From the NCBI RefSeq assembly GCF_014697025.1, contig NZ_JACJRC010000001.1, forward strand, positions 62,001-126,000: 64,000 nt of DNA, in the 5' to 3' direction. Source of the DNA: Alkalinema sp. FACHB-956. GTDB lineage: Bacteria; Cyanobacteriota; Cyanobacteriia; Leptolyngbyales; Leptolyngbyaceae. Positions 34,087 to 57,689 of this stretch are shown here, one piece after another (within the stretch, counting starts at the first letter, position 1; every line of letters starts with the position of its first letter). The notes under the pieces are model-generated. The model was not told where the DNA came from. It was given only the letters and a program-made list of their open reading frames with translations, and did not search any database. A program made the translations under genes and the position numbers.

Positions 34087-35121
34087 TTAGCCTTGGGGGA
34101 GTTGGGTAATTTGAGGTTTGATGGTGATTTGGGTGATCAGTAAGATAAACACGAGCAGGAATACATTGCTCCAGGCGACGTAATTGATATTGAGGAGAAT
34201 GCCGCTTAAGCCTGCCCAACCCATGAGGCCATAAATGCTTAACACTGCGCTAGTCTGAGATAGACCCGCTTGGAGTAAGCGGTGGTGAATGTGGCGACGA
34301 TCGGGGAAGAAGGGGGATTTGCCTTCCCGCAGACGGCTCACAATTACAAAGGTCATGTCCAAAATGGGTACTGCCAGAATTACATAGGGCAACATGGCAA
34401 GGGTAAAGTTGGCATGGTTTTGGACTGTCAGGATTGCAATACCACCCAGCATGGAGCCGAGGAAATAGGAACCACTGTCGCCCATGTAAAGTTGTGCGGG
34501 TTTGAAGTTGTACCGGAGAAAGCCGATCGTGGCTCCTGCAACGGCTAGGGAAATCATAGCAATATCAGAATTGCCTAGCTTCCAATTTACCAATGCAAAC
34601 ATGACTGCCGCGATCGCGCTGACGCCGGAAGCTAAACCATCCAAGCCATCCAGCCAATTGATTGCATTTGTGACCCCCGCTAACCAGAGAAAGGTAATCG
34701 GTAGGCTGAAGAGTCCTAGGTCGATCGTGCCAATGCCTGGGATAGGAAGGACATCCAGACGCAATCCAAAATACCAGGTAATGGCAGTAATCACCGCTTG
34801 CAGACCCAAGCGCAGAATCGGTGACAAACTCCAGCGATCGTCGGCCAAGCCGATCGCAAAAAATCCCACGCTGCCCAGGAGCATTGCCATAAATGCAGGG
34901 TTACTCGTGGGCAGGGCAACGCCTGCGACCATCATCCCCAGTAATCCTAGAAACGTCGCAGCACAGATCGCTAATCCGCCCATGCGCACCATGGGTTGCT
35001 GGTGAATTTTACGGGAATCGGGTTGATCCAAAAAGCCCCAGGAAGCCCCGAGGATTTTGGCAAGGGGTGTTAAACATAAGCCCCCTAACAGAGTGCTAGC
35101 AAAGGTTAACAGTAGGGTCAT
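34087..35121 (-). CDS. WecA/MraY-family undecaprenyl-phosphate sugar-1-phosphate transferase
   Basis: A 344-residue polyprenyl-phosphate transferase with about ten membrane spans. It loads a (probably N-acetyl) hexosamine-1-phosphate onto undecaprenyl phosphate and so begins glycan assembly. Diagnostic motifs: PDSRKIHQQPMVRMGG (~34-49), the GLADDRW aspartates D94/D95, TNAINWLDGLDGLASG (D158, D161), LYMGDSGSYFLG (~211) and the cytoplasmic RRHIHHRLLQ loop, all typical of WecA/TagO. It lies at the head of the minus-strand glycosyltransferase unit, downstream of a terminator that isolates it from the PCP gene, so it should have its own promoter in 35122-35297. Confidence 0.92.
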   Translation of the reverse strand: MTLLLTFASTLLGGLCLTPLAKILGASWGFLDQPDSRKIHQQPMVRMGGLAICAATFLGLLGMMVAGVALPTSNPAFMAMLLGSVGFFAIGLADDRWSLSPILRLGLQAVITAITWYFGLRLDVLPIPGIGTIDLGLFSLPITFLWLAGVTNAINWLDGLDGLASGVSAIAAVMFALVNWKLGNSDIAMISLAVAGATIGFLRYNFKPAQLYMGDSGSYFLGSMLGGIAILTVQNHANFTLAMLPYVILAVPILDMTFVIVSRLREGKSPFFPDRRHIHHRLLQAGLSQTSAVLSIYGLMGWAGLSGILLNINYVAWSNVFLLVFILLITQITIKPQITQLPQG

Positions 35122-35386: not shown

Positions 35387-37828
35387 TTATGCGTAAAGAT
35401 CGACGGAATAGTTAGTTGCACAGTTGGCGACAACCCCGAGGATGGGAATCCGGGCACCATTGAGGCGATCGATCGTCGTGGCCAGCGCATCGGCAGTGCC
35501 CCGCTTCCCTAACCGTGTGATTAAGACTAGACCACTAGTATTGGCCGCCAGCAATTTCACATCTGCCAGTCCCATCAACGGCGGCATGTCATAAATCACG
35601 AGATCAAAACTCTGGTGAAAACGCGGCATTAAATCCTGCATTTTTGCAGAGGCTAACAGTCGGGTGGGGTCAGGGGGTGGCTCGCCTGCACCAATGACAA
35701 ATAAGCTGGATTCCCAAGAGAGTCGCTGAATCACTTGAGTCACGGTGGCTTTACCCATGAGACAGTCACTGAGCCCTGGCCCGCTCGGTAAGCCCAGTAA
35801 GGATTGAATCTGGGTACTGCCCCGCCGAAAATGGGCATCGACTAACAAAACTCGCTTCCCTAACGCTGCTGCTGCTTGGGCTAAGTGCACTGCGATCGTG
35901 GTTCGTCCTTCGGTGGGTAGGGCGGAACTGATCACCAGCCCGTTCTCTAAGCGACCTTCGCCCAATTGCTGCATGGCGCAGTACAGGGTACGGAAGGCTT
36001 CCATAAATCCGTAAGCATCATATTCCCGTAGCCAGTAATTGTTATTGGGATCAGCCAGCGCTAACTCGGATGCTGCCGTTTCTGCTTTGGTTGCTTCCTC
36101 CAGATCTAAATTAAGTTCCACGAGGGGCAGCGCTTTGCGATCACTGGGCAAGGAACTGGGTGCTCCGGCTCCATTGAGGATTGTGGTACTATCTCGATCG
36201 CCATTCTGTACAGCCAAGTCATCTTGGGCAGCACCCGCTTCCTGGCCATTTGCCTTGCGATTGAGTAAATCCCGCATACGGTTTTTCAGATTGGTGGAAG
36301 CTTCGTTGAGCGATTGGCTATCCACCGTATCTGGCATGCGCAAATCCACAATGTGCATGCCAGGAATGCCATCTTTGAGATCGGGATGCAGCGGAATAAT
36401 GCCTAAAATTGGGAGCTTCACCTTGCGCTTCATTGCATCCACGGTATAGTACGTGTTTTCCAATTTTTCGATCAGGAAGGCAACCCCAATCCCAATGAAA
36501 ATACCAATCACAGCCCCACTCATCATCCCTTTAATGGGGTTGGCACCAGGCTTCAGTTTGAGATTTTTCGGTTCAGAAATCAGTTGCCAAGGCACATCAT
36601 TTTTGGCAGCTTGTACCTGGAGGCTTTCCTGGGTTTGCAGAAATCGCGTTAAGCTATCGGTCGCGATCGTCAAGTCTCGTTGAGTTTCGCTAAACTGACG
36701 CGACAAAATAGGTAACTGGCTATATTTGGCATTGAGGAAGTTGAGAACTTGATTGATCGTTTGCTGTTTAACGATCGCAATTTGTAGATCATTTTCTGCC
36801 ACTGCCAACTGTTCCCCCACGGACTGTTCGGCTTCCTTGAGCATGACGGGCACAAGGTTTTCTGCCTGTCGTTGGAGGAGCTGAATATTGGGAGAGTTGG
36901 GGCCAAACCGTGCCGATTCAATGGCAATTTGTTGTTCGAGGAGTTGATATTTTTGCAGCAGCGCTTGATAACGACCGGATTGGCTGAGGGCGATCGTTTT
37001 ACCTAGTTTTTCCTGAAGAATCTTGCGTCGTGTTTCTAGGCCCATAATTTCAACTTGTTTTTCTTGCCGCTGCTGCGTCCAAGTTGCAATTTGACCACTT
37101 AAGGTGCTGGAGTAATCTTTGATTTCAACAAAGTTATGGGTTTGTCGTAGGACTTCCAATTGCTTTTGTAAGTCATTAACCCGGTTTTGAATTTTAGGCA
37201 ATTGTTCATTAACAAACTTCAACCCTTGTTTGAGTTGAGCCTGTTGATCTTCACGACTATATTCCAAATACCCCCGTGCTAACCGTTGCAGTAACAAAAG
37301 TGCTTTGTCAGGGTTGGAATCACTATAGCTGACTTCGATAATTTTTGTTTCGCCCAGCCGTACGATCGCGACTTTCTGAGAAACTACATCATAGGTTGTT
37401 CCGGGATAGCGATCGTTGACATCCTTCAAGATTTCCCCCATCAGTTTGGGGCTGTAGAGGACTTCAATTTGGGTAGAGTAGTCAAACTCCTTATTGGAAG
37501 GAGCCGATTTACTCTCGGTTAGCTGATCGTTGATATCTGGGCGTTGGCTCACGGGTTCCACCAACAACCGAAAACTCCCCTGAAACTCTGGGACACTGCG
37601 AGCATTTTTTAAACCCGATAGCCCCGCCATGGCGATCGCACAAATACCAATGACGATCGCTTTACGGCGTAGCATTCCCACAATTTGAGGCAGGCTCCAA
37701 GTGGCTTCTCCAGCCTGATCGGTGTCGCTACTAGGAGCAGCAGGCCCGATCGGATTACTCTGTTGGTTTAGTTTCTGCAACAGATCGTTAACGGTGGGTT
37801 TGGTAGAAGGCTGACGGGACATAGTCAT
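35387..37828 (-). CDS. Wzc-like polysaccharide co-polymerase / BY-kinase-type ATPase
   Basis: An 813-residue fusion. The N-terminal Wzz domain (~45-130) starts with a membrane span (IVIGICAIAMAGLSG, ~54-68). Long coiled-coil segments run ~190-420, a second span lies near ~445-465 (GMMSGAVIGIFIGIGVAFL), and a C-terminal CpsD/CapB-type ATPase follows (~615-805). Walker A' (VLLVDAHFRRGS, ~657-668) and a Walker-B-like LVIYDMPPL are present. The Walker A motif reads PTEGRTT: the invariant lysine is arginine at about residue 642 (codon CGA at 35903-35905). The C-terminus (NYSVDLYA) has only two tyrosines, not a Tyr cluster. It probably controls chain length and export with the OPX protein; kinase activity is doubtful. 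Confidence 0.92.
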   Translation of the reverse strand: MTMSRQPSTKPTVNDLLQKLNQQSNPIGPAAPSSDTDQAGEATWSLPQIVGMLRRKAIVIGICAIAMAGLSGLKNARSVPEFQGSFRLLVEPVSQRPDINDQLTESKSAPSNKEFDYSTQIEVLYSPKLMGEILKDVNDRYPGTTYDVVSQKVAIVRLGETKIIEVSYSDSNPDKALLLLQRLARGYLEYSREDQQAQLKQGLKFVNEQLPKIQNRVNDLQKQLEVLRQTHNFVEIKDYSSTLSGQIATWTQQRQEKQVEIMGLETRRKILQEKLGKTIALSQSGRYQALLQKYQLLEQQIAIESARFGPNSPNIQLLQRQAENLVPVMLKEAEQSVGEQLAVAENDLQIAIVKQQTINQVLNFLNAKYSQLPILSRQFSETQRDLTIATDSLTRFLQTQESLQVQAAKNDVPWQLISEPKNLKLKPGANPIKGMMSGAVIGIFIGIGVAFLIEKLENTYYTVDAMKRKVKLPILGIIPLHPDLKDGIPGMHIVDLRMPDTVDSQSLNEASTNLKNRMRDLLNRKANGQEAGAAQDDLAVQNGDRDSTTILNGAGAPSSLPSDRKALPLVELNLDLEEATKAETAASELALADPNNNYWLREYDAYGFMEAFRTLYCAMQQLGEGRLENGLVISSALPTEGRTTIAVHLAQAAAALGKRVLLVDAHFRRGSTQIQSLLGLPSGPGLSDCLMGKATVTQVIQRLSWESSLFVIGAGEPPPDPTRLLASAKMQDLMPRFHQSFDLVIYDMPPLMGLADVKLLAANTSGLVLITRLGKRGTADALATTIDRLNGARIPILGVVANCATNYSVDLYA

Positions 37829-37941: not shown

Positions 37942-39417
37942 CTATTTCCCAGGGAATTGTCTAAAGACGCCAAAGAGGGAGAAGATGCTATTGATAGGTG
38001 TGAGAATATTCCCGATCGTGTCCGTAATCTTGGCACCCAAGGAGCGATCGACCAGAATCACATCACGACTTTGCAATATAGGATTGGAATCGGAATTAAT
38101 GGGTTTATCCAAATTGATTGCGATCTTGCGGCGGGCAACGGTGCCATTGGGATTCAGCCGAATCAGTTCCACCGTCTTCTTCTTGGCCCGTGGCCCAAAG
38201 CCCCCTGCCAACATAATCGCTTCATTCAGTGAAGTCCCTGTAGGAATCGTTTGAACCCCTGGAGCCAACACTTCACCCAGCAAATTCACCTTGATTTCTC
38301 CCGGAGAAACGTTGGCGCGACCGACTTGGAGAGCCACTTCTGACGGAATTTCGGTAGCGGTATGCAAAATCACGGTATCGCCATCCCGAATAGCAATATC
38401 TTGGCTGAGATCGCCATTCGTTAGGAGATCCCACAGACTGCTGTTAATAATTTCCGCCGTGCCATCCCGCAGGGGTCGCCGGATCTCGATTTGTTGTAAA
38501 TTCGTTTGTTGTGTAATGCCGCCTGCCTCTTCAATAATTTGCGTCAGTTTGGGCAGTTCTCCATTTTTCGGTGTGACGACATAGGCTCCAGGCCGATTGA
38601 CTTCGCCCAGAATCGCTACATGGACATTACTCATTTCCGAGAGCAACACCATAATCACAGGCTTGACTAATACCTGGGCATCCGCGTACAGTTTGCTAAT
38701 GGTTGTAGCCGCTTCGGATTCAGTCATGCCCTCCACATCCACCGCCCCAATCACAGGCAGCATAATTGTGCCATCCACCATCAGTTGATAGGCTCCTGTA
38801 AATTCCGGCACGTTGTAAATGACAACATTAATGCGATCGCCGGGAGCCAATGTATACTGCACAGGCCGATTGGGTTGTGGGATCCCTCGATCGGGTACAG
38901 CCCAGTTGCGATCGGGTCTGGGGATGCCTGTCTCTGGAATGGCGTTAGGGTTAGCGTTAAGGTTGGCGTTAGGGTTGGCGTTAGGGTTGGTGTTAGGAAT
39001 TACGTTGGGAGTTATGAATGGAGTCGGATTAGATGGAGTCGGATTAGGAATTGCATTTGGAATTGTGTTAGGAGTATTTGGTGAAGATGAATTAAATACT
39101 GGATTCGTTGGTTGAGGATTTAAAGAATTGGGATTGAGGTTGTTAAAAGTTGAATTTGAATTCGGAATGCTGGCTCCATTGCGAGCGTTAGGGGTAGAAC
39201 GACCTGGAAGGATGGTAGGGGGCAATGGTGTGGTAATCGGCTTCAGGGGGTTGGGCGTGACTGGGGGAATGGTAGGGGGTAAGGGGGTTGCGATCGAGGC
39301 CGTTGTTGAAGTTGTTGAATTAGTCGTTTGAGCCAAGACAACCGCAGACAGACCACCGTGAGCGATCCAGAGGAGGGAGAGTAAGCTTGCAGAGGAGATC
39401 TGGGTTAGTCGGGACAT
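37942..39417 (-). CDS. Wza-like outer-membrane polysaccharide export protein (OPX)
   Basis: A 491-residue exported protein with a signal peptide (about residues 1-30, SLLSLLWIAHGGLSAVVLA). A ~140-residue Pro/Asn/Thr-rich low-complexity stretch follows, containing repeated PNAN and PNAI units, and then the Poly_export domain (YTLAPGDRINVVIYNVPEFTG, from ~187) and at least two SLBB-type segments (VAILGEVNRPGAYVV ~268; VNLLGEVLAPGVQTIPTG ~378). It should form or gate the periplasmic/outer-membrane channel. The mature N-terminus shows no lipobox, unlike E. coli Wza. First gene of the OPX-PCP unit, divergent from the Wzm gene. Confidence 0.92.
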   Translation of the reverse strand: MSRLTQISSASLLSLLWIAHGGLSAVVLAQTTNSTTSTTASIATPLPPTIPPVTPNPLKPITTPLPPTILPGRSTPNARNGASIPNSNSTFNNLNPNSLNPQPTNPVFNSSSPNTPNTIPNAIPNPTPSNPTPFITPNVIPNTNPNANPNANLNANPNAIPETGIPRPDRNWAVPDRGIPQPNRPVQYTLAPGDRINVVIYNVPEFTGAYQLMVDGTIMLPVIGAVDVEGMTESEAATTISKLYADAQVLVKPVIMVLLSEMSNVHVAILGEVNRPGAYVVTPKNGELPKLTQIIEEAGGITQQTNLQQIEIRRPLRDGTAEIINSSLWDLLTNGDLSQDIAIRDGDTVILHTATEIPSEVALQVGRANVSPGEIKVNLLGEVLAPGVQTIPTGTSLNEAIMLAGGFGPRAKKKTVELIRLNPNGTVARRKIAINLDKPINSDSNPILQSRDVILVDRSLGAKITDTIGNILTPINSIFSLFGVFRQFPGK

Positions 39418-39740
39418 GGGTGTGGGAGGAGTGGGGAGTGGGGAATGGAGGGGTGGGCGTGGGCGTGGGGTAAAGATAGATGATTAGATTTAGGGTGTGA
39501 GATTTAGGGTGTGAGATTTAGGGTGTGAGATTTAGGGTGTGAGATTTAGGGGGAGTGGGGAACGATCGTGGTTCCTAGGGTTACTATTCCCGCCTCCTGC
39601 GCCAACTCCGCACAACTTGGGGAAGTTATACATGGCCTGAAACGCATACAAAATCTTGAACAAAATCGTGGACTCGATCGGGAGCAATCGCCTTTCTAGA
39701 GTGGGATTAGCCAACAACAACTCTATGGTTGAATCGACTC
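39418..39740. other. Divergent promoter region between OPX and Wzm genes
   Basis: Separates the two arms of the polysaccharide locus and must carry both promoters. Its left half is G-rich on the plus strand and holds a 14-base tandem array (listed separately). I see no other clear motif. Confidence 0.5.
39487..39551. repeat. 4.6 copies of a 14-bp tandem repeat
   Basis: GATTTAGGGTGTGA is repeated exactly four times plus nine bases, in the divergent regulatory region of the locus. Confidence 0.95.
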
Positions 39741-40568
39741 ATGACGTATCCCAAGGAACTGGTGATTGAATCAGGCCGTGCCCAACGCCAATACTGGCGT
39801 GACCTCTGGCGCTACCGTGAACTTTTTTACTTCCTCGCTTGGCGGGATTTGCTGGTGCGCTATAAACAAACCGCGATCGGGATTGCCTGGGCTTTGCTGC
39901 GCCCCTTCCTGACGATGGTGGTTTTCACTGTGGTTTTCGGTAGCTTGGCAAAACTTCCAGATAATGGTGTGCCCTATCCCATTCTCGTATTTTCCGCGAT
40001 GCTGCCCTGGCAGTTTTTTGCTAACTCCCTGTCGGAATGTAGTAATAGTCTTATTACGAATGCCAATCTAATTTCCAAAGTCTATTTTCCCCGTCTAATT
40101 GTGCCGACCTCGGCAATTATTGTGAGTTTTGTAGATTTCATGATTTCGGCCATTATTTTGCTGGGGCTGATGGCTTGGTATAACTTTGTGCCCAGTTGGC
40201 GAATCTTGTTATTGCCGGGATTTATCGCGATCGCCTTTGCTGCCTCCATGGGAGCAGGTCTCTGGTTAGCCGCGCTGAATGTGAAATATCGCGATTTCCG
40301 CTATGTGGTTCCCTTTATTATTCAATTTGGTTTGTACATTTCACCCGTGGGCTTTAGCAGCACGATCGTCCCGGAAGCTTGGCGCTGGTTGTATTCCCTC
40401 AATCCCATGGTTGGGGTGATCGATGGGTTTCGCTGGGCGATTTTGGGCGGTCAGTCGGAACTGTATGTCCCAGGGTTGCTTTGTTCGATCGGCCTCGTGA
40501 CGTTCCTGTTGATTGGTGGAATCCGTTATTTCCGTGCCTATGAGCGCTCCTTTGCCGATGTGATTTAA
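39741..40568 (+). CDS. ABC-2 type polysaccharide export permease (Wzm-like)
   Basis: A 275-residue membrane protein with six spans and the ABC-2 pattern: amphipathic N-terminal helix (RDLWRYRELFYFLAWRDLLVRYKQ), AIGIAWALLRPFLTMVVFTVVFG (spanning ~45-67), AMLPWQFFANSLSECSNSL, and a C-terminal FQFGLYISPVGFS-like segment before the last spans. It forms the channel moving an undecaprenyl-linked glycan across the plasma membrane. The ATG at 39741 is preferred to a TTG four codons earlier. The Wzt gene follows, separated by a fold-back repeat. Confidence 0.92.
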   Translation: MTYPKELVIESGRAQRQYWRDLWRYRELFYFLAWRDLLVRYKQTAIGIAWALLRPFLTMVVFTVVFGSLAKLPDNGVPYPILVFSAMLPWQFFANSLSECSNSLITNANLISKVYFPRLIVPTSAIIVSFVDFMISAIILLGLMAWYNFVPSWRILLLPGFIAIAFAASMGAGLWLAALNVKYRDFRYVVPFIIQFGLYISPVGFSSTIVPEAWRWLYSLNPMVGVIDGFRWAILGGQSELYVPGLLCSIGLVTFLLIGGIRYFRAYERSFADVI

Positions 40569-40732: not shown

Positions 40733-42016
40733 ATGTCTAATTCCGTTATTCAAGTTGATCACCTGAGCAAACGCTACACGCTCCGCCACCAAAACACTGA
40801 GCGCTATCAGTCCCTGCGTGATACCCTCGTGCGCCAAACCAAACAACTGGGACGGCGAATTCTAGCCCCTGGCCGATCGATGGCTAAACCTTACCAGGAA
40901 GACTTTTGGGCGCTGCGAGATCTGTCATTTGATATTAAACAGGGCGATCGGGTCGGTATCATTGGTCGCAATGGTGCAGGTAAATCAACCTTGCTGAAGC
41001 TGCTGAGCCGCATTACCGAACCCACTTCAGGTCGGATTCGTTTGCGGGGTCGGGTGGCAAGCCTCTTGGAAGTCGGGACGGGTTTTCATCCGGAACTGAC
41101 TGGGCGGGAAAATATTTTCCTGAATGGGGCCATCCTGGGCATGAGCAAAGCAGAAATTCAACAAAAGTTTGATGAAATTGTCGCCTTTGCTGAAGTTGAA
41201 CGCTTTCTTGATACACCCGTGAAACGTTACTCGTCCGGGATGTATGTGCGATTGGCCTTTGCGGTGGCAGCCCACCTGGAACCGGAAATTCTAATCGTGG
41301 ATGAAGTGCTGGCGGTGGGCGATGCCCAGTTCCAAAATAAATGCCTAGGCAAAATGCAAGATGTTGCCCATAGTGGTCGTACAGTCTTGTTTGTCAGCCA
41401 CAATATGGCCGCCATTCGCCAGTTGTGTGATTCGGCGATTATGTTGCAGCGGGGAGAACTGATCTTTTCGGGGAGCGCTGAAGAAGGCGTTAAACATTAC
41501 CTCAACAGCGCAGCGACGACGGGTAATGCGATTGGGATGGTGAGTTCCTACGGAATCGCTTTAACGGATGCGGCGTTGGAAGATGGAGATGCCTATCCCA
41601 CCCGATCGCCCATCTTCGATCGTGACCATAGCCTCCGACTTCAGCTCCAGGCCCACAGTCCGCTGAGCGATTGTGCGGTAGTGGTGCAGATCCATGACGA
41701 CCTCGGTACCTTGGTGTCGAGCCTGTGTACCGTCGAAGAAGGCATTGCACCCTTTGCGCTTAAAAATGAGGTGAGTATTCGGTTTGACCTGGGGCGGATG
41801 ACACTATTTCCAGGCTCCTACCGCGTCAGCGTTTTCTTGTATCGATCGAATGATCCCATCACCTATCTCGCTGCAGAAGATGTTCTGAAATTTGAAGTTC
41901 AGCCCTCGATTATTCAAGATGCCATGTGGTCCTATCGCAGTGACCATGGCATTACCCGCTTAGCCCAAGGTTGCGCCCTGCTCAGCCATCAACCTTCCCT
42001 AGCGACCCGAGGTTAG
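40733..42016 (+). CDS. Polysaccharide ABC transporter ATPase with C-terminal domain (Wzt-like)
   Basis: A 427-residue protein. N-terminal ABC ATPase (~1-245): Walker A GRNGAGKST (~80), the Wzt-type VASLLEVGTGFHPELTGREN (~105-124), signature YSSGMYVRLAFAVA (~165) and Walker B ILIVDEVLAVGD (~187). The C-terminal ~150 residues (from DAYPTRSPIFDRDHS) form a beta-rich domain like the Wzt carbohydrate-binding domain that recognises the capped end of the finished polymer (FDLGRMTLFPGSYRVSVFL). This implies export of a complete chain with a terminal modification, as in Wzm/Wzt O-antigen systems. A terminal capping enzyme is not obvious nearby. Confidence 0.93.
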   Translation: MSNSVIQVDHLSKRYTLRHQNTERYQSLRDTLVRQTKQLGRRILAPGRSMAKPYQEDFWALRDLSFDIKQGDRVGIIGRNGAGKSTLLKLLSRITEPTSGRIRLRGRVASLLEVGTGFHPELTGRENIFLNGAILGMSKAEIQQKFDEIVAFAEVERFLDTPVKRYSSGMYVRLAFAVAAHLEPEILIVDEVLAVGDAQFQNKCLGKMQDVAHSGRTVLFVSHNMAAIRQLCDSAIMLQRGELIFSGSAEEGVKHYLNSAATTGNAIGMVSSYGIALTDAALEDGDAYPTRSPIFDRDHSLRLQLQAHSPLSDCAVVVQIHDDLGTLVSSLCTVEEGIAPFALKNEVSIRFDLGRMTLFPGSYRVSVFLYRSNDPITYLAAEDVLKFEVQPSIIQDAMWSYRSDHGITRLAQGCALLSHQPSLATRG

Positions 42017-42020
42017 ACCC

Positions 42021-43289
42021 ATGAAAATTGCGCCTATGAAAATTGCGCCTATGAAAATTGCATTTGTCAGCTACGAATATCCACCGGATACGGCGATCGG
42101 GGGAATTGCCACCTATGTGCGGCAAGCAGCGAAAATGTTGGCCCAGCGCGGGCATCATGTGGAAGTCTTTGCGGCGAGTCCCTCCCGTTCCGGCTGTGAA
42201 ACTAGCCCTGGCCTGAAAATCCATCGGATTCAACCGCGCGATCGGGCCAGTTTTGCCCAGGAAATTGCACCGATTTTTGCGGAGCGTCATCGATTGGTCC
42301 AGTTTGATGTACTGGAAGGGCCGGACTGTGGGGCAGATGCAGCTGCTATCGTGGCCCAATTTCCCACCTTGCCGCTGGTGATCAAACTCCATACCCCCAG
42401 TTATATTTTGCAAAGGGTGGGCCATACCCCCTTGCAGGGCGCGGCGAAACTGCGATTTATTCTGGGTGCGCTGCGCCGGGGGCAGTGGCCCAAACTACCG
42501 CCAGACCAGCCGCTGTACGATCGCCAGTCCGATCCCGAATATCGCCACGCCTTACAAGCCCAAACCATTGCAGCCCCCTCCGCAGCGATCGGTCAGCAAG
42601 TCCAACAGGATTGGCAACTCGATCAATCAATTATCGATCTCGTGCCCTATCCCTACATTCCCACGCCAGCCCTCCTGGACATTCCCCTGGATACGCAAAC
42701 CCAGCGAGTGACCTTTATTGGCCGGTTGGAAATTCGCAAAGGCATTCTAGATTTGATGCGGGCGATTCCCCAAGTGCTCCAGCAATACCCTGCCGCCAAA
42801 TTCTGCTTTGTGGGACCTGCTTGGCCTTCGCCCGTCCACCAGTTGAATATGCAGGAATACATTTGTCGAAAACTGCATCGCCATCGCCATGCCATGGAAT
42901 TCACGGGCGCTGTACCCTTGGATCACATTCCCAAATATCTAGCCCAAACGGATATCTGCGTTTTCCCCAGTATTTGGGAAAGTTTTGGTTTGGTTTGCCT
43001 GGAAGCGATGGCCGCAGGACGGGGCGTGGTAGGCAGTAGTTCCGGGGGCATGGTGGAATTGCTAGATGGGGGCAATGCCGGATTGCTGACGCCGCCCAAG
43101 CATCCTGAACTATTGGCAAAATCGATTCTCCAACTGTTGCAAAACCCTGATCTCCGACAGCAGTATGGCGAGATCGCCCGTGATCGCGTTCTGAGTCAAT
43201 ATAGCTTGGATTATATCGGCCAAATTCAAGAAGCGAGCTATCGATCGACCATCGATCGTCAAGCCAGTCGTGAAATCGTTAGGTTGTAA
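42021..43289 (+). CDS. Glycosyltransferase family 4 (GT-B) with triplicated start
   Basis: A GT4 enzyme (422 residues from the first ATG). The N-terminus reads MKIAP-MKIAP-MKIA: a 15-base unit is present in three nearly identical copies (42021-42065), giving three ATGs in frame, of which the third (42051) gives the normal family start MKIAFVSYEYPPDTAIGGI. Donor domain: VTFIGRLEIRKGILDLMRAI (~233-252), FPSIWESFGLVCLEAMAAG (~318-336, E-x7-E) and GNAGLLTPPKHPE. It begins four bases after the Wzt stop, so coupled translation is likely. Sugar specificity unknown. Confidence 0.9.
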   Translation: MKIAPMKIAPMKIAFVSYEYPPDTAIGGIATYVRQAAKMLAQRGHHVEVFAASPSRSGCETSPGLKIHRIQPRDRASFAQEIAPIFAERHRLVQFDVLEGPDCGADAAAIVAQFPTLPLVIKLHTPSYILQRVGHTPLQGAAKLRFILGALRRGQWPKLPPDQPLYDRQSDPEYRHALQAQTIAAPSAAIGQQVQQDWQLDQSIIDLVPYPYIPTPALLDIPLDTQTQRVTFIGRLEIRKGILDLMRAIPQVLQQYPAAKFCFVGPAWPSPVHQLNMQEYICRKLHRHRHAMEFTGAVPLDHIPKYLAQTDICVFPSIWESFGLVCLEAMAAGRGVVGSSSGGMVELLDGGNAGLLTPPKHPELLAKSILQLLQNPDLRQQYGEIARDRVLSQYSLDYIGQIQEASYRSTIDRQASREIVRL

Positions 43290-43323
43290 GCACTCCCATT
43301 CTATTTCTTTATTCACTGGATTT

Positions 43324-44262
43324 ATGAAACCAATCATCAGTGTGATTGTTTGCACCCATAATCCGCGTGCCGACTATCTCCAACAAACGCTCAATGCCCT
43401 TGCTTGCCAATCGCTCCCTTTTTCCGTGTGGGAACTTTTGCTGATTGATAATGCCAGTCGGGAACCCTTGGAAGCGACGTGGAGCCTCCAGTGGCACTCC
43501 CAGGGCCGGATCATTCGTGAGGATAAAATTGGCTTGACGGCGGCTAGATTACGCGGTTTTGAAGAGGCTCAAGGCGAAATTCTCGTCTTTGTTGATGATG
43601 ATAATGTTCTCAACGAGCATTACCTAGCAGAAGTTCAACGCAGTTTTCAACAACATCCCAGCCTAGGCGCGATCGGGGGCAAGTCCATCCCACAATTTGA
43701 GTCCTCGCCGGAACCGTGGATGGCTGAGTTTTACACCGTATTAGCCCTGCGTGACTTTGGCTCTCAACGCTTAATCAGCCCGATTTACAGCCCCGAGGAC
43801 AAAATCGAATATCCCAGTTTTGCCCCCGCAGGCATTGGCCTCTCGATTCGGCGCATTGCCTTTGGGCAGTATGTCGATCGAGCCCAGAAGGATGCTGCGC
43901 GTTTGGCCTTAGGACGCACGGGCAAGCAACTCACCTCCGGGGAAGATAACGATATTGTGCTGACGGTGTTGGAAAACGGTTGGCAACTGGGATATTTTCC
44001 AGCGCTGGAAGTGACCCACTTAATTTCCGCCAATCGCTTAGAGCGGGATTACCTCGCCCGCCTCAACCAAGCCGCCATGCGATCGTGGGTGCAGGTGCTG
44101 GGAATGCACAACCTTAAACTCTGGGAACCGATCGCTCCTTGGACGGTCTTCCCCCGCAAAGCCAAAGCCTTCATCGCCTACAAAGCCTGGAAAGATGCCG
44201 CCGCCTACGTCCGTTGGCGTGGAGCCTGCGGCCTATACGAAGCCCTAGCTGGAATGGCTTAA
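43324..44262 (+). CDS. Glycosyltransferase family 2
   Basis: A 312-residue GT-A transferase starting MKPIISVIVCTHNPRADYL, with LLLIDNASREPLE (~39), ILVFVDDDNVLNEHYL carrying the DxD metal motif (~88), an IGGKSIPQFES segment and the base-like GEDNDIVLTVLENGW (~202). I prefer the ATG at 43324, since the 18 codons of open frame before it overlap the preceding gene and lack similarity. The C-terminus has one weakly hydrophobic helix. It follows the previous GT by 34 bases and probably belongs to the same transcript. Confidence 0.9.
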   Translation: MKPIISVIVCTHNPRADYLQQTLNALACQSLPFSVWELLLIDNASREPLEATWSLQWHSQGRIIREDKIGLTAARLRGFEEAQGEILVFVDDDNVLNEHYLAEVQRSFQQHPSLGAIGGKSIPQFESSPEPWMAEFYTVLALRDFGSQRLISPIYSPEDKIEYPSFAPAGIGLSIRRIAFGQYVDRAQKDAARLALGRTGKQLTSGEDNDIVLTVLENGWQLGYFPALEVTHLISANRLERDYLARLNQAAMRSWVQVLGMHNLKLWEPIAPWTVFPRKAKAFIAYKAWKDAAAYVRWRGACGLYEALAGMA

Positions 44263-44304: not shown

Positions 44305-45273
44305 ATGTCTGTCCTTCAACCCCTCTCCACCTTCGCCAAGGCGCTGCATTTAGGCCAATTGCTCTATCAAACCTACCATCGCCCTAAGGGAATTTTGCAA
44401 AAAACCTTAAAGCGAGGTGTGTTGAATGAATTGGGCGATCGCACGGCGCAACGGCAAATGGAAGCCGCAGCGGAAAGCTTACCCAGCTTAACGCCCAGCG
44501 ACAATCCCGCCAAAATTTACTTTCTGAGTGGCGATCGCTTTTGGTATCAAACCTGTTTCTGCGCCTATTCCATGATTGCCCAGGCGGGTGTTTACTATCG
44601 CCCCGTGATTTACGACGATGGCACCCTGGATCAAACCTGTAGCGATAAAATTCGTCGCATTTTTCCCGATGCTGAGATTATAACTGCGCAATCTGTTGAA
44701 GAAACGTTAGATCAGCATTTACCTGCCAACACGTTTCCCACCCTGCGATCGCGGCGTTTGGAGTATTTCAACCTCCGCAAACTGACCGATATTCATGTCA
44801 ATTCCCACGGCTGGAAACTCGTGTTGGATTCCGATATGCTGTTCTTCCGTCCGCCCCATTTCCTGATCGAATGGTTGAGGAATCCTAACCATTCCTGTTA
44901 CATGCTGGATGTGGATAATGCCTACGGTTATTCCGATGCATTAATGACCCAATTGGCCGGTGCACCGATTCCTGATCGAATCAATGTTGGCATTTGTGGC
45001 CTCAATAGTGATGCGATCGATTGGCATGAGTTGGAATATTGGTGCAAAACCATGATCGATCGGGAAGGCACCCACTATTACCAGGAACAAGCCCTGTCTG
45101 CCATGCTGATGGCGCGGGATACCAGTTGGGTCGCGCCCCGGCAGGATTATTTGCTCATGCCCGATCGTCAGGAAGCAGAAAACCCCCAAGCTGTGATGCA
45201 CCACTATGTTGCTGACTCTAAACCCTGGTATTTCCGCTACGGTTGGCAGCATATTGCAGCATGTACTAGCTAG
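44305..45273 (+). CDS. Putative GT-A glycosyltransferase, GT8-like
   Basis: A 322-residue protein. After an ~85-residue helical N-terminus it shows IYFLSGDRFWYQTCFCAYSM, VIYDDGTLDQTCSDKI, a LRKLTDIHVNSHGWKLVLDSDMLFFRPP segment whose DSD (~186) fits the metal-binding DxD of GT8-like enzymes, and a late INVGICGLNSDAIDW plus EQALSAMLM. This order (N-terminal donor strand, DxD, Asn-containing acceptor loop, EQ) is typical of GT8/related families. The spacer in front carries short CCCACTCT repeats. The general call is good; the exact family is uncertain. Confidence 0.72.
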   Translation: MSVLQPLSTFAKALHLGQLLYQTYHRPKGILQKTLKRGVLNELGDRTAQRQMEAAAESLPSLTPSDNPAKIYFLSGDRFWYQTCFCAYSMIAQAGVYYRPVIYDDGTLDQTCSDKIRRIFPDAEIITAQSVEETLDQHLPANTFPTLRSRRLEYFNLRKLTDIHVNSHGWKLVLDSDMLFFRPPHFLIEWLRNPNHSCYMLDVDNAYGYSDALMTQLAGAPIPDRINVGICGLNSDAIDWHELEYWCKTMIDREGTHYYQEQALSAMLMARDTSWVAPRQDYLLMPDRQEAENPQAVMHHYVADSKPWYFRYGWQHIAACTS

Positions 45274-50351: not shown

Positions 50352-51734
50352 ATGCAAGTCTCCAACTCTCTCCCACGCTCCCAACCCTCCGCCCGATCGC
50401 GCCGTCGCGTTCTGATTGTTAGCCCCCATTTTCCGCCGATTAATGCCCCCGATCACCAACGCATTCGAGTCGCATTGCCCTACTTGCAGGAATTCGGTTG
50501 GGACGCGCAAATCTTGGCGGTCAAACCCCACCATGTGCCCCATCCCCAGGATGCCAAACTGGCCGAGGCACTGCCCCAGGATTTACCGATCGTCTATTCC
50601 GATGCCCTCTCCACGCGCTACACCAAACTGGTGGGATTGGGCAATGTTGGCTGGCGTTGTTTACCGGAAATGCAAAAAATCGGCGATCGTTTGCTGTCTA
50701 CCCAGCAATTTGATCTCGTTTTCTTTTCCACGACGATTTTCCCAGTTATGTTGCTGGGTAAGCGCTGGTGGCAGAAGTTTGGTGTGCCCTATGTTTTAGA
50801 CTTTCAAGATCCCTGGCTCAGTGATTACCATACTGACTCCAACTCCGGTCGCAAACGCCATTCCCGGCCCCCCGGCGGTTGGCTGAAGTATGGCATAACG
50901 CAATTCCTAGCTCGCTGGGCCGAACCCCAGGCTATGGAAGCAGTACGACATATTATTAGCGTTTCTCCCAGCTATCCCAATACGTTACGGCAGCGCTATC
51001 CCCACCTACACCCGGAGCAGTTTACAGTCCTTCCCTTTGGGGCTCCCGAAGCAGACTTTACAGCATTGCCCAATCTGAATATTAAACAAACCATTTTCGA
51101 TTCCCAGGATGGCAAACGCCATTGGGTCTACGTAGGACGTGGGGGCGAAGATATGGCAACGGCGCTCCGTATTTTATTTGAAGGCATTCAAACCGCCCGT
51201 TGGCGCAATCCAGAACTGTGGCGAAATATTCATCTCCATTTCGTCGGCACCAGTTACGCGCCAGCCCATTTAGCGGTTAAAACGATCGAAACCATTGCCC
51301 AATCCTACGGGCTAGGAGATTTGGTCACCGAGCACACAGGCCGCATTCCCTATTTCGAGGCGCAACAACTCTTAGTCGATAGCGATGCCATTCTCATGAT
51401 TGGTTCCGACGACCCCAGCTACACCGCCTCCAAACTCTACCCCTGCATCCTCGCGCAAAAGCCCATTCTTGCGGTATTCCACGAAAACAGTTCCGTCGTG
51501 GATATTCTGCAAAATTGCCGTGCGGGTAAAACGATTACTTTCAACACTGATCGAACTAACCCCGCTCCTAATCCCACCGCAGAATCCATACAATCCATTC
51601 TCAACAGCTTCGCCCAGCAGCAAGTTGAACTCAACACCAACTGGGACGCCTTTCAGCCCTACAGCGGCAAAGCCATGACCCAGCAAATGTGCCAAGTCTT
51701 CGATCGCTGCCTCACCCAAACCCCCACCCCATAA
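50352..51734 (+). CDS. Glycosyltransferase, GT-B, large-loop type
   Basis: A 460-residue GT-B-like protein. From the ATG at 50352 (in-frame TTG 36 bases earlier, inside the fold-back element) it has a basic N-terminus, then RRVLIVSPHFPPINAPDHQRIRVALPYL (~17-44), VPYVLDFQDPWLSDYH (~150) followed by a Gly/Pro/Arg linker, and a donor domain with KRHWVYVGRGGEDMATALRIL (~255) and YTASKLYPCILAQKPILAVF (~358-377), where K-LY-x4-Q replaces the classic E-x7-E. This is a recognised variant of GT4 in which the second glutamate is lost. Probable glycosyltransferase of unknown specificity. Confidence 0.82.
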   Translation: MQVSNSLPRSQPSARSRRRVLIVSPHFPPINAPDHQRIRVALPYLQEFGWDAQILAVKPHHVPHPQDAKLAEALPQDLPIVYSDALSTRYTKLVGLGNVGWRCLPEMQKIGDRLLSTQQFDLVFFSTTIFPVMLLGKRWWQKFGVPYVLDFQDPWLSDYHTDSNSGRKRHSRPPGGWLKYGITQFLARWAEPQAMEAVRHIISVSPSYPNTLRQRYPHLHPEQFTVLPFGAPEADFTALPNLNIKQTIFDSQDGKRHWVYVGRGGEDMATALRILFEGIQTARWRNPELWRNIHLHFVGTSYAPAHLAVKTIETIAQSYGLGDLVTEHTGRIPYFEAQQLLVDSDAILMIGSDDPSYTASKLYPCILAQKPILAVFHENSSVVDILQNCRAGKTITFNTDRTNPAPNPTAESIQSILNSFAQQQVELNTNWDAFQPYSGKAMTQQMCQVFDRCLTQTPTP

Positions 51735-51772
51735 CCCTCCTACCCTTCCACCCTTCCACCCTCCTACCCGCC

Positions 51773-53344
51773 ATGAGCGCATCCCCCCCAGCTAAAAACC
51801 AGATGAAAACCGTCTTCTGGTTTGGCATTGCCGCCCTATTTTTTAGCAACCGCAAAGCGTTACTCCATGCCGCTCCCATGACCTCGATCGGGGCGATTAT
51901 GATCGGCATTGCCTGCATGTTTCCCATGTATTTGTGGTGTGCAGGGCGGGTGAAAGGAATGCCAATCTTTCCGTTCTTCACCCTGACGTATCTGTGGACA
52001 TTCTGTCTACCGTTATTAAGTGAAAATCCCAACGTACTGAAATACCCTCCCACAGCCCATCTCTATGCCAGTTTCACAACGGTTACTTTTCTGTTATCTG
52101 GAACGCTAATTTGGTGGCAATTTGTTAGATCTCCTAAACCTGTCCAAAGTGCATTTCTAGCATTGAAAACTAAGCCCGCTGAAAATTTCTTTTTTTGGAC
52201 ATTGGGAGCTGCATTATTATTTAACATGTACTTTCTCGCTCGATGGTTTTCAGTGCCAGAAAGTCTTTTTACGCTGGTGCGGGGGATCGTTATCGGGTTA
52301 AGTACCCTGGGGATTTTTGTATTAGCCTACCGATGTGGAGGGGGATATCTTTCTAAGTTCAAATCTCGGTTACTCTTTTTCCTATTAGCTGGCATTATTT
52401 TAACCAGTGCGGCAACCCTCATTTTGAAAACAGCACTGACACTGTTTTTGATGTCGGTCATCGCTTACGTGATTGGAGGCCGCAAATTACCCGTTTTGCC
52501 TTTGGTGATTGGGTTGATTTGTTTATTGCCATTGCACTATGGGAAACACCCCATGCGCCATAAATACTGGGAAGGGCCGACTAAATTAGTCCAGCCATGG
52601 GAGTATCCCGCTTGGTTCCAAGAATGGGCTAGTTTTTCCCAAAAAACACTGGCTGAAAAGCCCCAGCGATGGGATCCCCCTAAGGAAAAAAAGGAATCCT
52701 TCGTTGAACGATCGAGCGTCATTCACATGCTAATGATGGCCCAGGATAAGATTCCTCGACTCTATCCAACAATGAATGGTGCAACCTATGGCATTATTCC
52801 GCAGTTAATGCTACCGCGATTTCTGAATCCCAATAAAATCAGAAGTCATGAGGGGACGCACATGTTGAATGTCCACGTTAAACGGCAAACCTATCAACAA
52901 ACGTTTAAAACGGTGATTGCCTGGGGATTATTGCCGGAAGCCTATGCAAACTTTGGCTTTATGGGTGCGTTTATTGTGGGTGGAAGCTTAGGAGCCTTCT
53001 ATGGCTTCGTCACCATGCAAGGGGTGGAAGCTCCGACATTTTCGTTCCGAACACTGTTTTGCATCTTGGTGATTAGTTTTGCGTTGGCGTCTACGGAGTG
53101 GACAGCGGGGGTGTATGCCGCAACGCTTCAGCAGTCTTCGATGCCGTTGATTGGGATGCGGTTGGTGTTTATGCGCCGCTTCCGAAAGATGCGCCAGAAA
53201 AAAGTCGCGCCTGCTCTAGCGGGCTTGAGTCAGCAGGATATGGCTTGGTTACGGTCCGATCCCGAATTGCTGCAACAACTGATCGATGAATTGGAACAGC
53301 GATCGGCTCCCCCAATCTCCCCACAACTGAAACCACAGACTTGA
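51773..53344 (+). CDS. Multi-span membrane protein, Wzy/O-antigen-polymerase-like
   Basis: A 523-residue protein from the ATG at 51773, with roughly ten hydrophobic spans and one long hydrophilic loop of ~120 residues (about 285-400: KYWEGPTKLVQPWEYPAWFQEW, RSSVIHMLMMAQDKIPRLYP, LMLPRFLNPNKIRSHEGTHM). This layout, many spans with one big periplasmic loop holding Arg/His/Lys residues, is that of Wzy and oligosaccharide-repeat-unit polymerases, which vary too much for motif assignment. The C-terminal ~50 residues are cytoplasmic and basic, then acidic (RSDPELLQQLIDELEQR). Position within the GT cluster supports a polymerase or related role. Function inferred from topology only. Confidence 0.7.
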   Translation: MSASPPAKNQMKTVFWFGIAALFFSNRKALLHAAPMTSIGAIMIGIACMFPMYLWCAGRVKGMPIFPFFTLTYLWTFCLPLLSENPNVLKYPPTAHLYASFTTVTFLLSGTLIWWQFVRSPKPVQSAFLALKTKPAENFFFWTLGAALLFNMYFLARWFSVPESLFTLVRGIVIGLSTLGIFVLAYRCGGGYLSKFKSRLLFFLLAGIILTSAATLILKTALTLFLMSVIAYVIGGRKLPVLPLVIGLICLLPLHYGKHPMRHKYWEGPTKLVQPWEYPAWFQEWASFSQKTLAEKPQRWDPPKEKKESFVERSSVIHMLMMAQDKIPRLYPTMNGATYGIIPQLMLPRFLNPNKIRSHEGTHMLNVHVKRQTYQQTFKTVIAWGLLPEAYANFGFMGAFIVGGSLGAFYGFVTMQGVEAPTFSFRTLFCILVISFALASTEWTAGVYAATLQQSSMPLIGMRLVFMRRFRKMRQKKVAPALAGLSQQDMAWLRSDPELLQQLIDELEQRSAPPISPQLKPQT

Positions 53345-56264: not shown

Positions 56265-57689
56265 ATGAGGTCATCTCCACCGCCCCCCCTACAGTCTTCC
56301 CCCCGCAGCGTTGTGATCAAAACCCAGACGCTGCGTCCGTTTATCTGGCTGGGCTTGCTGCTTCTGGCTGGACTGACTCGGCCTGTGCTGTTGTCCCAGG
56401 CCGTGCCCATGGTGCAGCTTTCAGCCCAGACTACCCAACCCCAAGCCCTCGCAGGTGCCCGATCTCAGCAACGCCAACAGCAGGAACGCCAAGTCCGTCC
56501 GGATAATTACGACCTGGCCCGTTATCCCGTTGACGATCGCAACGCCAAGCATTGGAAAAATCTGCTGTGGACAACGGCGATCGTTGAACCGAAGCAGCCC
56601 TTTGTGGCCCAAGCCATGGAGAGGATTTTGGCCATGACTCGCCAGCCCAACCTGTCCAATGCCCAGATGCGCACGATCGATATGGCGTTGCAGGTGGGGA
56701 CGCAACTCTATGCCGCCGATCCCCGCACCTACAGTAACCTCACCGGCCAATTGCGGGCCACGATCGAACAAAGTAAAGATCCCCAATGGGTGGCCATGGC
56801 GATCGCGGCTCTAGCCAATGGTAATCGAACGACTAAAACTAATCTGTCTACCCAAGAGATTCAACAACTGAGCCAACGGATTCAGCAACGCTTCCCCAAT
56901 TGGCAAACTCAACCCTATCTCTATACCACCCTGCAAGACATTGCAACAGCGTTCAATCCACCCGCAGCCCCACCCCTCAAGGATTTGCTCCAGTGGCAGG
57001 CCCAACCGGGGGAAATGCAAGCCTACGTGTTGTGCAATGTCGATCGCCATGCCTTGTGTCGCATGGTTCTGAAGGACGATCGGGGTCAGTGGGTGCGGGA
57101 AAAAGGCCAACTGTGGTCGGTGCCCTTGCTGTTGCGATCGGTGCATGGCCTCAGTTGGAATTTTGTGCGAGGCAATACCCCCCAAGGGCTGTATCGCATC
57201 GATAGCACCACGCCGCAACCCGATGATCTATTTTTTCGGGCCTATGGGCAGTTTTCCCTGGTCAATCTTTTTGTCCCCTTTGAAGCAGGAACCACTGCCA
57301 TGGCTGGCTTTAGCGGCTCTCCGGCTGACTACCAAGCGCTATTCCCCCCCAGTTGGCAGAACCATTGGGGTTTGCAGCAGAGCTACTGGGCTGGCAAGCT
57401 CGGTCGATCGCTGTTTCGCATTCACGGCACCGGAGACGCCCCCGACTTTTTCAGCGGCAAGCAGCGTAATCCAGCTAGCGCCAACTGGAATCCCACGATC
57501 GGCTGTCTCTCAGCCCTAGAACTCTACAGCGAGACGGGGAAACTGTTGCAAGCCGACATGCCCCAAATCCTCGAAAAACTCCAATCTGCCTCCAGTGACA
57601 GTTTACAAGGCTACCTCGTGGTGGTGGATCTGGCCCAAACACCAGGTACCGCGATCGAGCTGGAAGATATTGTGGCAGCAATCAATTAG
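56265..57689 (+). CDS. Exported protein with divergent L,D-transpeptidase-like C-terminal region
   Basis: A 474-residue protein with a basic N-terminus and one hydrophobic segment (FIWLGLLLLAGLTRPVLLSQA, ~26-46), so exported or anchored. A helical region (~75-240) is followed by a segment with LYRID (PQGLYRIDS, ~308) and FRIHGTGDAP (~386) then NPTIGCLSAL (~410). The His-Gly followed ~24 residues later by Gly-Cys, after a PxGLYxI strand, looks like a YkuD L,D-transpeptidase core in diverged form, where HG-x(n)-S-x-GC is expected. The catalytic cysteine would be that of IGCLS. Alternatively an unrelated cysteine/histidine protein. Fold call tentative. Confidence 0.55.
   Translation: MRSSPPPPLQSSPRSVVIKTQTLRPFIWLGLLLLAGLTRPVLLSQAVPMVQLSAQTTQPQALAGARSQQRQQQERQVRPDNYDLARYPVDDRNAKHWKNLLWTTAIVEPKQPFVAQAMERILAMTRQPNLSNAQMRTIDMALQVGTQLYAADPRTYSNLTGQLRATIEQSKDPQWVAMAIAALANGNRTTKTNLSTQEIQQLSQRIQQRFPNWQTQPYLYTTLQDIATAFNPPAAPPLKDLLQWQAQPGEMQAYVLCNVDRHALCRMVLKDDRGQWVREKGQLWSVPLLLRSVHGLSWNFVRGNTPQGLYRIDSTTPQPDDLFFRAYGQFSLVNLFVPFEAGTTAMAGFSGSPADYQALFPPSWQNHWGLQQSYWAGKLGRSLFRIHGTGDAPDFFSGKQRNPASANWNPTIGCLSALELYSETGKLLQADMPQILEKLQSASSDSLQGYLVVVDLAQTPGTAIELEDIVAAIN

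Follow-up and report, generated by a model that had tools for sequence, protein, structure and literature searches.

A gene for a Wzc-like polysaccharide co-polymerase (PCP) lies on the minus strand of a 64,000-nucleotide stretch of the Alkalinema sp. FACHB-956 genome (assembly GCF_014697025.1, contig NZ_JACJRC010000001.1, positions 62,001 to 126,000), referred to here as the window. It stands in a polysaccharide locus, between genes for a WecA-like transferase and a Wza-type export protein; genes for the Wzm and Wzt subunits of an ATP-binding cassette (ABC) exporter run divergently, followed by glycosyltransferase genes (Table 1). Wzc function is taught as dependent on cycles of tyrosine phosphorylation. 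Here we describe a cyanobacterial clade, including the window protein, in which the bacterial tyrosine kinase (BY-kinase) domain appears to have lost its chemistry.

The active site of the Wzc-like protein

Pfam assigned residues 46 to 136 of the 813-residue product to Wzz and residues 641 to 771 to AAA_31, and phmmer matched it to the Wzc, Etk, and CapB chains. Residue 642 pairs with position 540 of Wzc in the phmmer alignment, which is to a PDB chain of the K540M mutant; the plus-strand letters TCG give the minus-strand codon CGA, placing Arg at the position of the Walker A lysine, as the original prediction from the window's letters had stated. Both K540 and the Walker B residue D642 of Wzc are described in PMC8517177. 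The prediction also held the Walker A' aspartate to be intact, which is true of the first, D664; the motif reads D664-A-H666, however, against D562-x-D564 in Wzc, and D564 is a named active-site residue in work on that kinase (PMC11986026). As judged from the alignment, the active site is thus more degraded than first reported, the second Walker A' aspartate being gone as well. The Walker B aspartate (D747) is present, and a C-terminal tyrosine cluster is absent: the tail holds just the two tyrosines already noticed, Y807 and Y812.

An AlphaFold2 model of the kinase-like domain, with a mean predicted local distance difference test (pLDDT) score of 88.6, has the BY-kinase fold, matching CapA2B2 with VIA Z 27.0 and a root mean square deviation (rmsd) of 2.0 over 199 residues, and Wzc with VIA Z 25.8 and an rmsd of 2.5 over 202 residues. 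Since Lys-bearing homologues were present in the model's input alignment, this match is expected and is silent on activity; the structure alignments comprised 55 (A3) and 39 (A5) of 58 loci, each together with the window protein. The full-length model (mean pLDDT 77.7, predicted template modeling score 0.48) shows long helices between residues 76 and 431, and the predicted layout is that of a PCP-2a protein, two transmembrane helices around a periplasmic domain with a fused cytoplasmic BY-kinase-like domain. Its top Foldseek matches were Wzc chains (E value of 1.1e-27), but over the entire chain the template modeling score was 0.28 and the rmsd 57.8. A PADLOC match to Cas12d (E value of 5.3e-4), confined to a helical stretch at residues 205 to 304, was taken as chance.

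Table 1. Coordinates, in the window, of the Wzc-like gene, its notable residues and segments, and neighbouring genes
Feature	Coordinates	Strand	Basis or remark
Wzc-like polysaccharide co-polymerase with predicted fused BY-pseudokinase domain, 813 amino acids	35387..37828	-	Open reading frame (ORF); Pfam; phmmer; Foldseek
Predicted first transmembrane helix, residues 57-76	37601..37660	-	Model helix; hydropathy peak
Predicted second transmembrane helix, residues 431-457	36458..36538	-	Model helix; hydropathy peak
Kinase-like domain, residues 603-805	35414..36022	-	AlphaFold2 model, structural match
Arg642 replacing Walker A lysine (Wzc K540)	35903..35905	-	Codon and alignment
Asp664, first Walker A' aspartate (Wzc D562), retained	35837..35839	-	Alignment
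His666 replacing second Walker A' aspartate (Wzc D564)	35831..35833	-	Alignment and codon
Two-residue insertion (670-671) behind Walker A' motif	35816..35821	-	Letters in 17/17 clade members, gaps in 42/42 Lys homologues
Asp747, Walker B aspartate, present	35588..35590	-	Alignment; absent from 8/17 clade members
Short C-terminal tail, 11 residues past N802, with Y807 and Y812	35390..35422	-	
WecA-like initiating glycosyltransferase	34087..35121	-	Pfam Glycos_transf_4
Wza-type outer-membrane polysaccharide export protein	37942..39417	-	Pfam Poly_export, SLBB
Wzm-type ABC-2 membrane subunit	39729..40568	+	Pfam ABC2_membrane; conserved neighbour
Wzt-type ATPase with Wzt_C domain	40733..42016	+	Pfam ABC_tran, Wzt_C
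Two glycosyltransferases	42021..44262	+	More glycosyltransferase ORFs up to 54705

A cyanobacterial clade without the Walker A lysine

Relatives were sought first among the relatives of the window genome and then with a four-domain profile over 388 cyanobacterial genomes, a sample of the class, which makes the clade size a lower bound. Proteins from 15 genomes scored above 300 bits, followed by those from genomes G109 (250.4) and G187 (235.1); the next protein carries the lysine and scored 234.5, so close to G187 that the membership of G109 and G187 rests on their residues and on the tree, not on the score. Motif residues were taken from an alignment of 59 proteins, 17 without the lysine and 42 with it. 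In the 17, the position is occupied by Arg (10), Ala (4), or Ser (3); the second Walker A' aspartate is absent throughout (11 His, 6 Gln), and the Walker B position is Asp in nine, Thr in five, Ala in two, and Val in one. The other 42 proteins all have the lysine and the Walker B aspartate, and at the second Walker A' position they carry Asp (39), Asn (2), or Glu (1); a further 40 of 40 matches outside the clade also have the lysine. Uniform conservation of Arg among homologues, which would have spoken against the original prediction, is therefore not what was found, and since the residue varies within the clade, Arg is not required as a replacement for Lys.

For the tree, duplicates of the domain sequence and frames shorter than 400 amino acids were removed, and two incomplete frames (L040 and L079) were omitted. 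The 17 proteins fall on one side of a branch with a Shimodaira-Hasegawa-like approximate likelihood ratio test (SH-aLRT) value of 100, and a single change between Lys and non-Lys labels suffices even though the motif columns were left out of the calculation. The tree came from a quick search with SH-aLRT as its only support measure; the position of G109 and G187 inside the clade is weakly supported (SH-aLRT 53), and L015 and L016, two Lys-bearing paralogues from the window genome, sit on long branches of unsure placement. The member from G007 (L050) is a 674-amino-acid C-terminal part at a contig end, and its N-terminal part seems to lie on another contig as L047. In the G007 proteins L050 and L046, the linker between the second transmembrane helix and the kinase-like domain repeats a segment resembling GKIKTKFEEALEQQA several times with little variation.

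Wider searches added no independent members. No new protein without the lysine was found in families f24 and f13 (36 and 63 genomes; cutoff of 1e-66), and the single window protein, used as a query across the contigs of named genomes, found no relative. A pattern-based scan of named genomes with the clade alignment gave 58 loci, 57 of them with letters at the site: 47 have Lys and 10 do not (7 Arg, 2 Ser, 1 Ala), and these 10 match contigs already represented in the clade of 17. Among them are loci from Elainella saxicola E1, Alkalinema sp. RU_4_3, Nodosilinea nodulosa PCC 7104, Phormidium sp. FACHB-1136, Phormidesmis priestleyi Ana, and Lyngbya confervoides BDU141951. A fragment from Leptolyngbyaceae cyanobacterium CRU_2_3 (L184), 64% identical to the window domain and with the clade tail, is a probable further member; it ends at a contig edge before Walker A and was left out of the 17.

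The clade differs from its Lys-bearing homologues at more than the catalytic positions. Between residues 600 and 813, positions 642, 666, 672, 682, and 713 show 90% or more identity among the 42 Lys homologues and less than 50% in the clade, and columns 670, 671, and 780 are insertions, occupied in all 17 clade members and gapped in all 42 Lys proteins. H648, W705, E706, R723, M752, and Y807 are among the residues shared by at least 16 of the 17 and found in less than 35% of the Lys proteins. The tail past N802 is 11 to 14 residues long with one to three tyrosines; Y807 is conserved in all 17 members and Y812 in 15, and the motif Y-x-V-D-[LFY]-Y occurs in 15. In the 42 proteins with the lysine, the corresponding tail is 5 to 278 residues long and has zero to nine tyrosines, with none in five of the 42. 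These five (L023, L028, L029, L045, and L109) keep the kinase motifs and have no tyrosine past the N802 column.

In six close clade members (15 pairs), the ratio of nonsynonymous to synonymous substitution rates (dN/dS) of the kinase-like domain was 0.063 to 0.150, a sign of purifying selection, and it was lower than that of the periplasmic and transmembrane part in 13 of the 15 pairs, which argues against decay.

The window genome has four other Wzc-like genes (L013, L014, L015, and L016), all with the lysine and all on other contigs, whose products are 33 to 42% identical to the window protein over the kinase-like domain. The paralogue on contig C37 has Glu at the second Walker A' aspartate and a YTSYY tail; that on C23 has Asn there and a DSPHL tail; that on C3 has Glu at the first Walker A' aspartate; and that on C7, the only one to keep the lysine, both Walker A' aspartates, and the Walker B aspartate, has one tail tyrosine. 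None of the four combines the lysine, the DxD motif, the Walker B aspartate, and a tail with multiple tyrosines. The original prediction allowed that a separate active BY-kinase gene might explain function; candidate genes do exist, but none appears fully canonical, and the Alkalinema genome may lack any fully canonical BY-kinase of the Wzc-like family.

Linkage to a Wzm/Wzt exporter

We searched the stretches fetched around each gene with the Wzm and Wzt encoded in the window. Wzm/Wzt was found in the stretches of 14 of the 17 clade members. Of 20 comparators with the lysine, 4 had it in their stretch (Wzt only in one case), and the four Lys-bearing paralogues in the window genome had none. 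The comparators are the best matches of the clade-built profile and of the window protein, that is, near homologues and not a random sample of cyanobacterial Wzc. Fisher's exact test for 14/17 versus 4/20 gave a P value of 2.3e-4, with the qualification that the clade is one lineage and the events are not independent. In all 14, Wzm/Wzt lies on the strand opposite to the Wzc-like gene, and these members span four family codes. The overlapping set of named genomes, with flanks of up to 6 kb and some short contigs, gave 7 of 10 non-Lys loci and 2 of 47 Lys loci. In that set, L165 from Nodosilinea nodulosa PCC 7104 has the clade gene together with Wza, Wzm, and Wzt.

The three members without Wzm/Wzt nearby are G007, where none was found in the 5.9 kb upstream on the contig; G109, where Wzm shares the contig of the Wzc-like gene but lies about 27 kb from it; and G187, where Wzm is on another contig. 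The Wza gene adjoins the Wzc-like gene in the window, in 13 of the 14 other core members, and in G109 and G187; G040 (L049) is the sole core member without Wza in its stretch. An 813-amino-acid frame sits between Wzm and Wza in G010. The window genome contains one close copy of the window Wzm and two other proteins 25 to 30% identical to it.

A scan for Wzx and Wzy near the clade genes found neither. Their absence was dropped as an argument for ABC export, as no Wzx was found near the 20 Lys-bearing comparators either, and there was one Wzy-like match (L106); the hits in L014 were the query genes themselves, leaving the Wzx part of the scan without an independent positive control. Wzx and Wzy_C homologues occur on other contigs of the window genome, and the C23 paralogue lies with Wzx and a below-cutoff Wzy_C match. 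One match to a low-molecular-weight (LMW) tyrosine phosphatase was found in the genome, on C3.

Three further ORFs fall within the window's polysaccharide cluster or on its border (44305 to 45273, 322 amino acids; 51689 to 53344, 551 amino acids; and 56265 to 57689, 474 amino acids); none gave a Pfam match above the cutoff.

A co-polymerase that probably works without phosphorylation

Loss of kinase activity, as the original prediction proposed, is well supported at the level of sequence: the lysine and the second Walker A' aspartate are gone from all 17 clade members and the Walker B aspartate from eight. The proposal that the domain still binds ATP is conceivable by analogy with CapA1B2(K55M), whose crystal holds ADP-Mg (PMC3795738). 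As for the suggested role in chain-length regulation, it is a fair expectation from the family, made less certain in its Wzy-type form by the adjacent Wzm/Wzt genes. The reading we favour, and consider rather probable, is that the protein is a fused BY-pseudokinase PCP-2a co-polymerase that works without tyrosine phosphorylation, probably together with ABC-type export. The kinase-like domain would no longer phosphorylate tyrosine and would serve a Wzc-Wza complex that spans the periplasm, either as a structural ring or as a docking module, and the polymer would be handed over by the Wzm/Wzt transporter, not by Wzx/Wzy, as the gene linkage suggests. In such an ABC setting, the cycle of phosphorylation and dephosphorylation that times Wzy polymerization could be dispensable; PCP-3 proteins of ABC-dependent export have no kinase, and the Wzm/Wzt linkage suggests that the same relaxation may apply to the clade. 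The conserved short tail might then serve as a binding peptide in place of a phosphorylation substrate. A salt bridge between R642 and D747 locking an open state, by analogy with the K540-D642 salt bridge of Wzc (PMC8517177), was not adopted as a mechanism for the clade, as G010 has Arg642 with Ala747.

Several observations weigh against this reading. The Wzm/Wzt linkage may reflect a single event, the clade being one lineage; it is not exclusive, with Wzm and/or Wzt also near four of the 20 comparators, and it is missing from three clade members. The Wzx/Wzy scan is uninformative, given the lack of Wzx near the comparators. A short tail is not diagnostic by itself, since short or tyrosine-free tails also occur among the Lys proteins. 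In five of six Lys-bearing pairs, the dN/dS of the kinase-like domain (0.007 to 0.046; the sixth, 0.201) was lower than the whole range of the clade, whose domain may be under weaker constraint than that of ordinary Wzc. Finally, cyanobacterial Wzm/Wzt has also been proposed as an O-antigen exporter, in S. elongatus (PMC4390846).

The main rival explanation builds on that proposal: the protein would serve, like EcpK or HfsB, as a pseudokinase PCP-2 of a Wzx/Wzy pathway whose genes lie elsewhere in the genome, and its linkage to an unrelated O-antigen exporter would be incidental. The Wzx and Wzy_C homologues on other contigs are consistent with this, as is the Wzx/Wzy type of the pseudokinase PCP-2 systems in PMC12004946; the recurrence of Wzm/Wzt beside the gene in 14 of 17 members, across four family codes and always on the opposite strand, makes it unlikely. 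Less likely still is a mixed oligomer in which a Lys-bearing Wzc paralogue phosphorylates the two conserved tail tyrosines in trans. The four paralogues, the LMW phosphatase match, and the conservation of Y807 and Y812 would fit such an arrangement, but the only paralogue with all the catalytic aspartates and the lysine has one tail tyrosine, the paralogues lie on other contigs and are distant over the domain, and a tail of 11 to 14 residues would be doubtful in its reach into a neighbour's site. That Arg stands in for Lys, leaving an active or ATP-hydrolyzing variant P-loop enzyme, is very improbable: the window protein does retain T643, T644, D664, and D747, but Ala or Ser replaces the lysine in 7 of the 17 members, in addition to the changes at the second Walker A' and Walker B aspartates. 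Least probable is a sequencing error or a decaying gene, for which we found no supporting point. Turning CGA into a Lys codon takes two substitutions or more, and the relatives have Arg, Ala, or Ser, so R642 is not accounted for by the misreading of one base; the lysine is gone in 16 other genomes, the frame is open over 813 amino acids, and dN/dS is well below 1 in the six close members.

The favoured reading, of a PCP-2a co-polymerase independent of phosphorylation, has precedent in EcpK/EpsV and HfsB/HfsA, pairs in which a BY pseudokinase is reported to serve a PCP-2 protein without phosphorylation (PMC12004946). Like EcpK of Myxococcus xanthus and HfsB of Caulobacter, the clade domain has a predicted BY-kinase fold whose catalytic residues are gone, which would qualify it as a BY pseudokinase, has no tyrosine-rich tail, and is tied to a co-polymerase (EpsV and HfsA in those systems, where a scaffold role was proposed). 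Unlike those stand-alone proteins of Wzx/Wzy pathways, it is fused to the co-polymerase, within 813 amino acids, and mostly lies near an ABC exporter; EcpK has none of the motifs, whereas the clade retains part of them. Fused PCP-2 pseudokinases are also on record: S. meliloti SMc01795, Brucella ceti BCETI_6000729, Mesorhizobium Mlr8439, and Vibrio vulnificus VV1_2305, after Cuthbertson et al. (PMC12004946), and Rhizobium PssP2, reported without Walker A, A', and B and the Y-cluster (PMC4182512). These share with the clade a co-polymerase and an inactive kinase-like domain in one polypeptide; they come from other phyla, are compared here by description, and are not linked to ABC export in the accessible text of either paper.

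Active PCP-2a BY-kinases such as E. coli Wzc and Synechocystis Sll0923, for which ATPase and autokinase activity were measured (PMC6562117), resemble the clade in their two predicted transmembrane helices, coiled-coil periplasmic part, C-terminal BY-kinase fold, and adjacent Wza gene, and differ in having the lysine, the second Walker A' aspartate, and the tyrosine cluster. The PCP-3 protein KpsE is likewise associated with ABC-type export, an association that for the clade comes from gene neighbourhood, but it lacks a cytoplasmic kinase-like domain; it has only the first transmembrane helix, and among PCPs the kinase domain is restricted to PCP-2 (PMC12220298). Canonical Walker A and B motifs are said to be present "in many cases" (PMC4594306), which leaves room for others, and ABC transporter-type polysaccharide clusters in cyanobacteria are mentioned in PMC8205485. 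Among the titles and abstract openings listed by searches of an open-access library, with subscription papers mostly outside this scope, we found no report of such a clade of Wzc pseudokinases in cyanobacteria or of its linkage to ABC export. BY pseudokinases, fused ones included, are already known, and the cyanobacterial clade and its linkage to an ABC exporter seem to be new.

More tentatively, a PCP-2a lineage may have dispensed with tyrosine phosphorylation on becoming committed to ABC export, with the kinase fold retained as a passive ring and the tyrosine tail turned into a short conserved docking peptide; in function, the clade would then stand between Wzc (PCP-2) and KpsE (PCP-3) as a natural intermediate, although we hold this history to be less probable than the reading on which it builds. 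A clade member annotated as "tyrosine autokinase" by homology is probably no kinase. By keeping the domain but not its chemistry in the vicinity of an ABC exporter, such a lineage uncouples the structural role of the domain from the catalytic one, and the clade offers a natural experiment on which polysaccharide export step requires phosphorylation.

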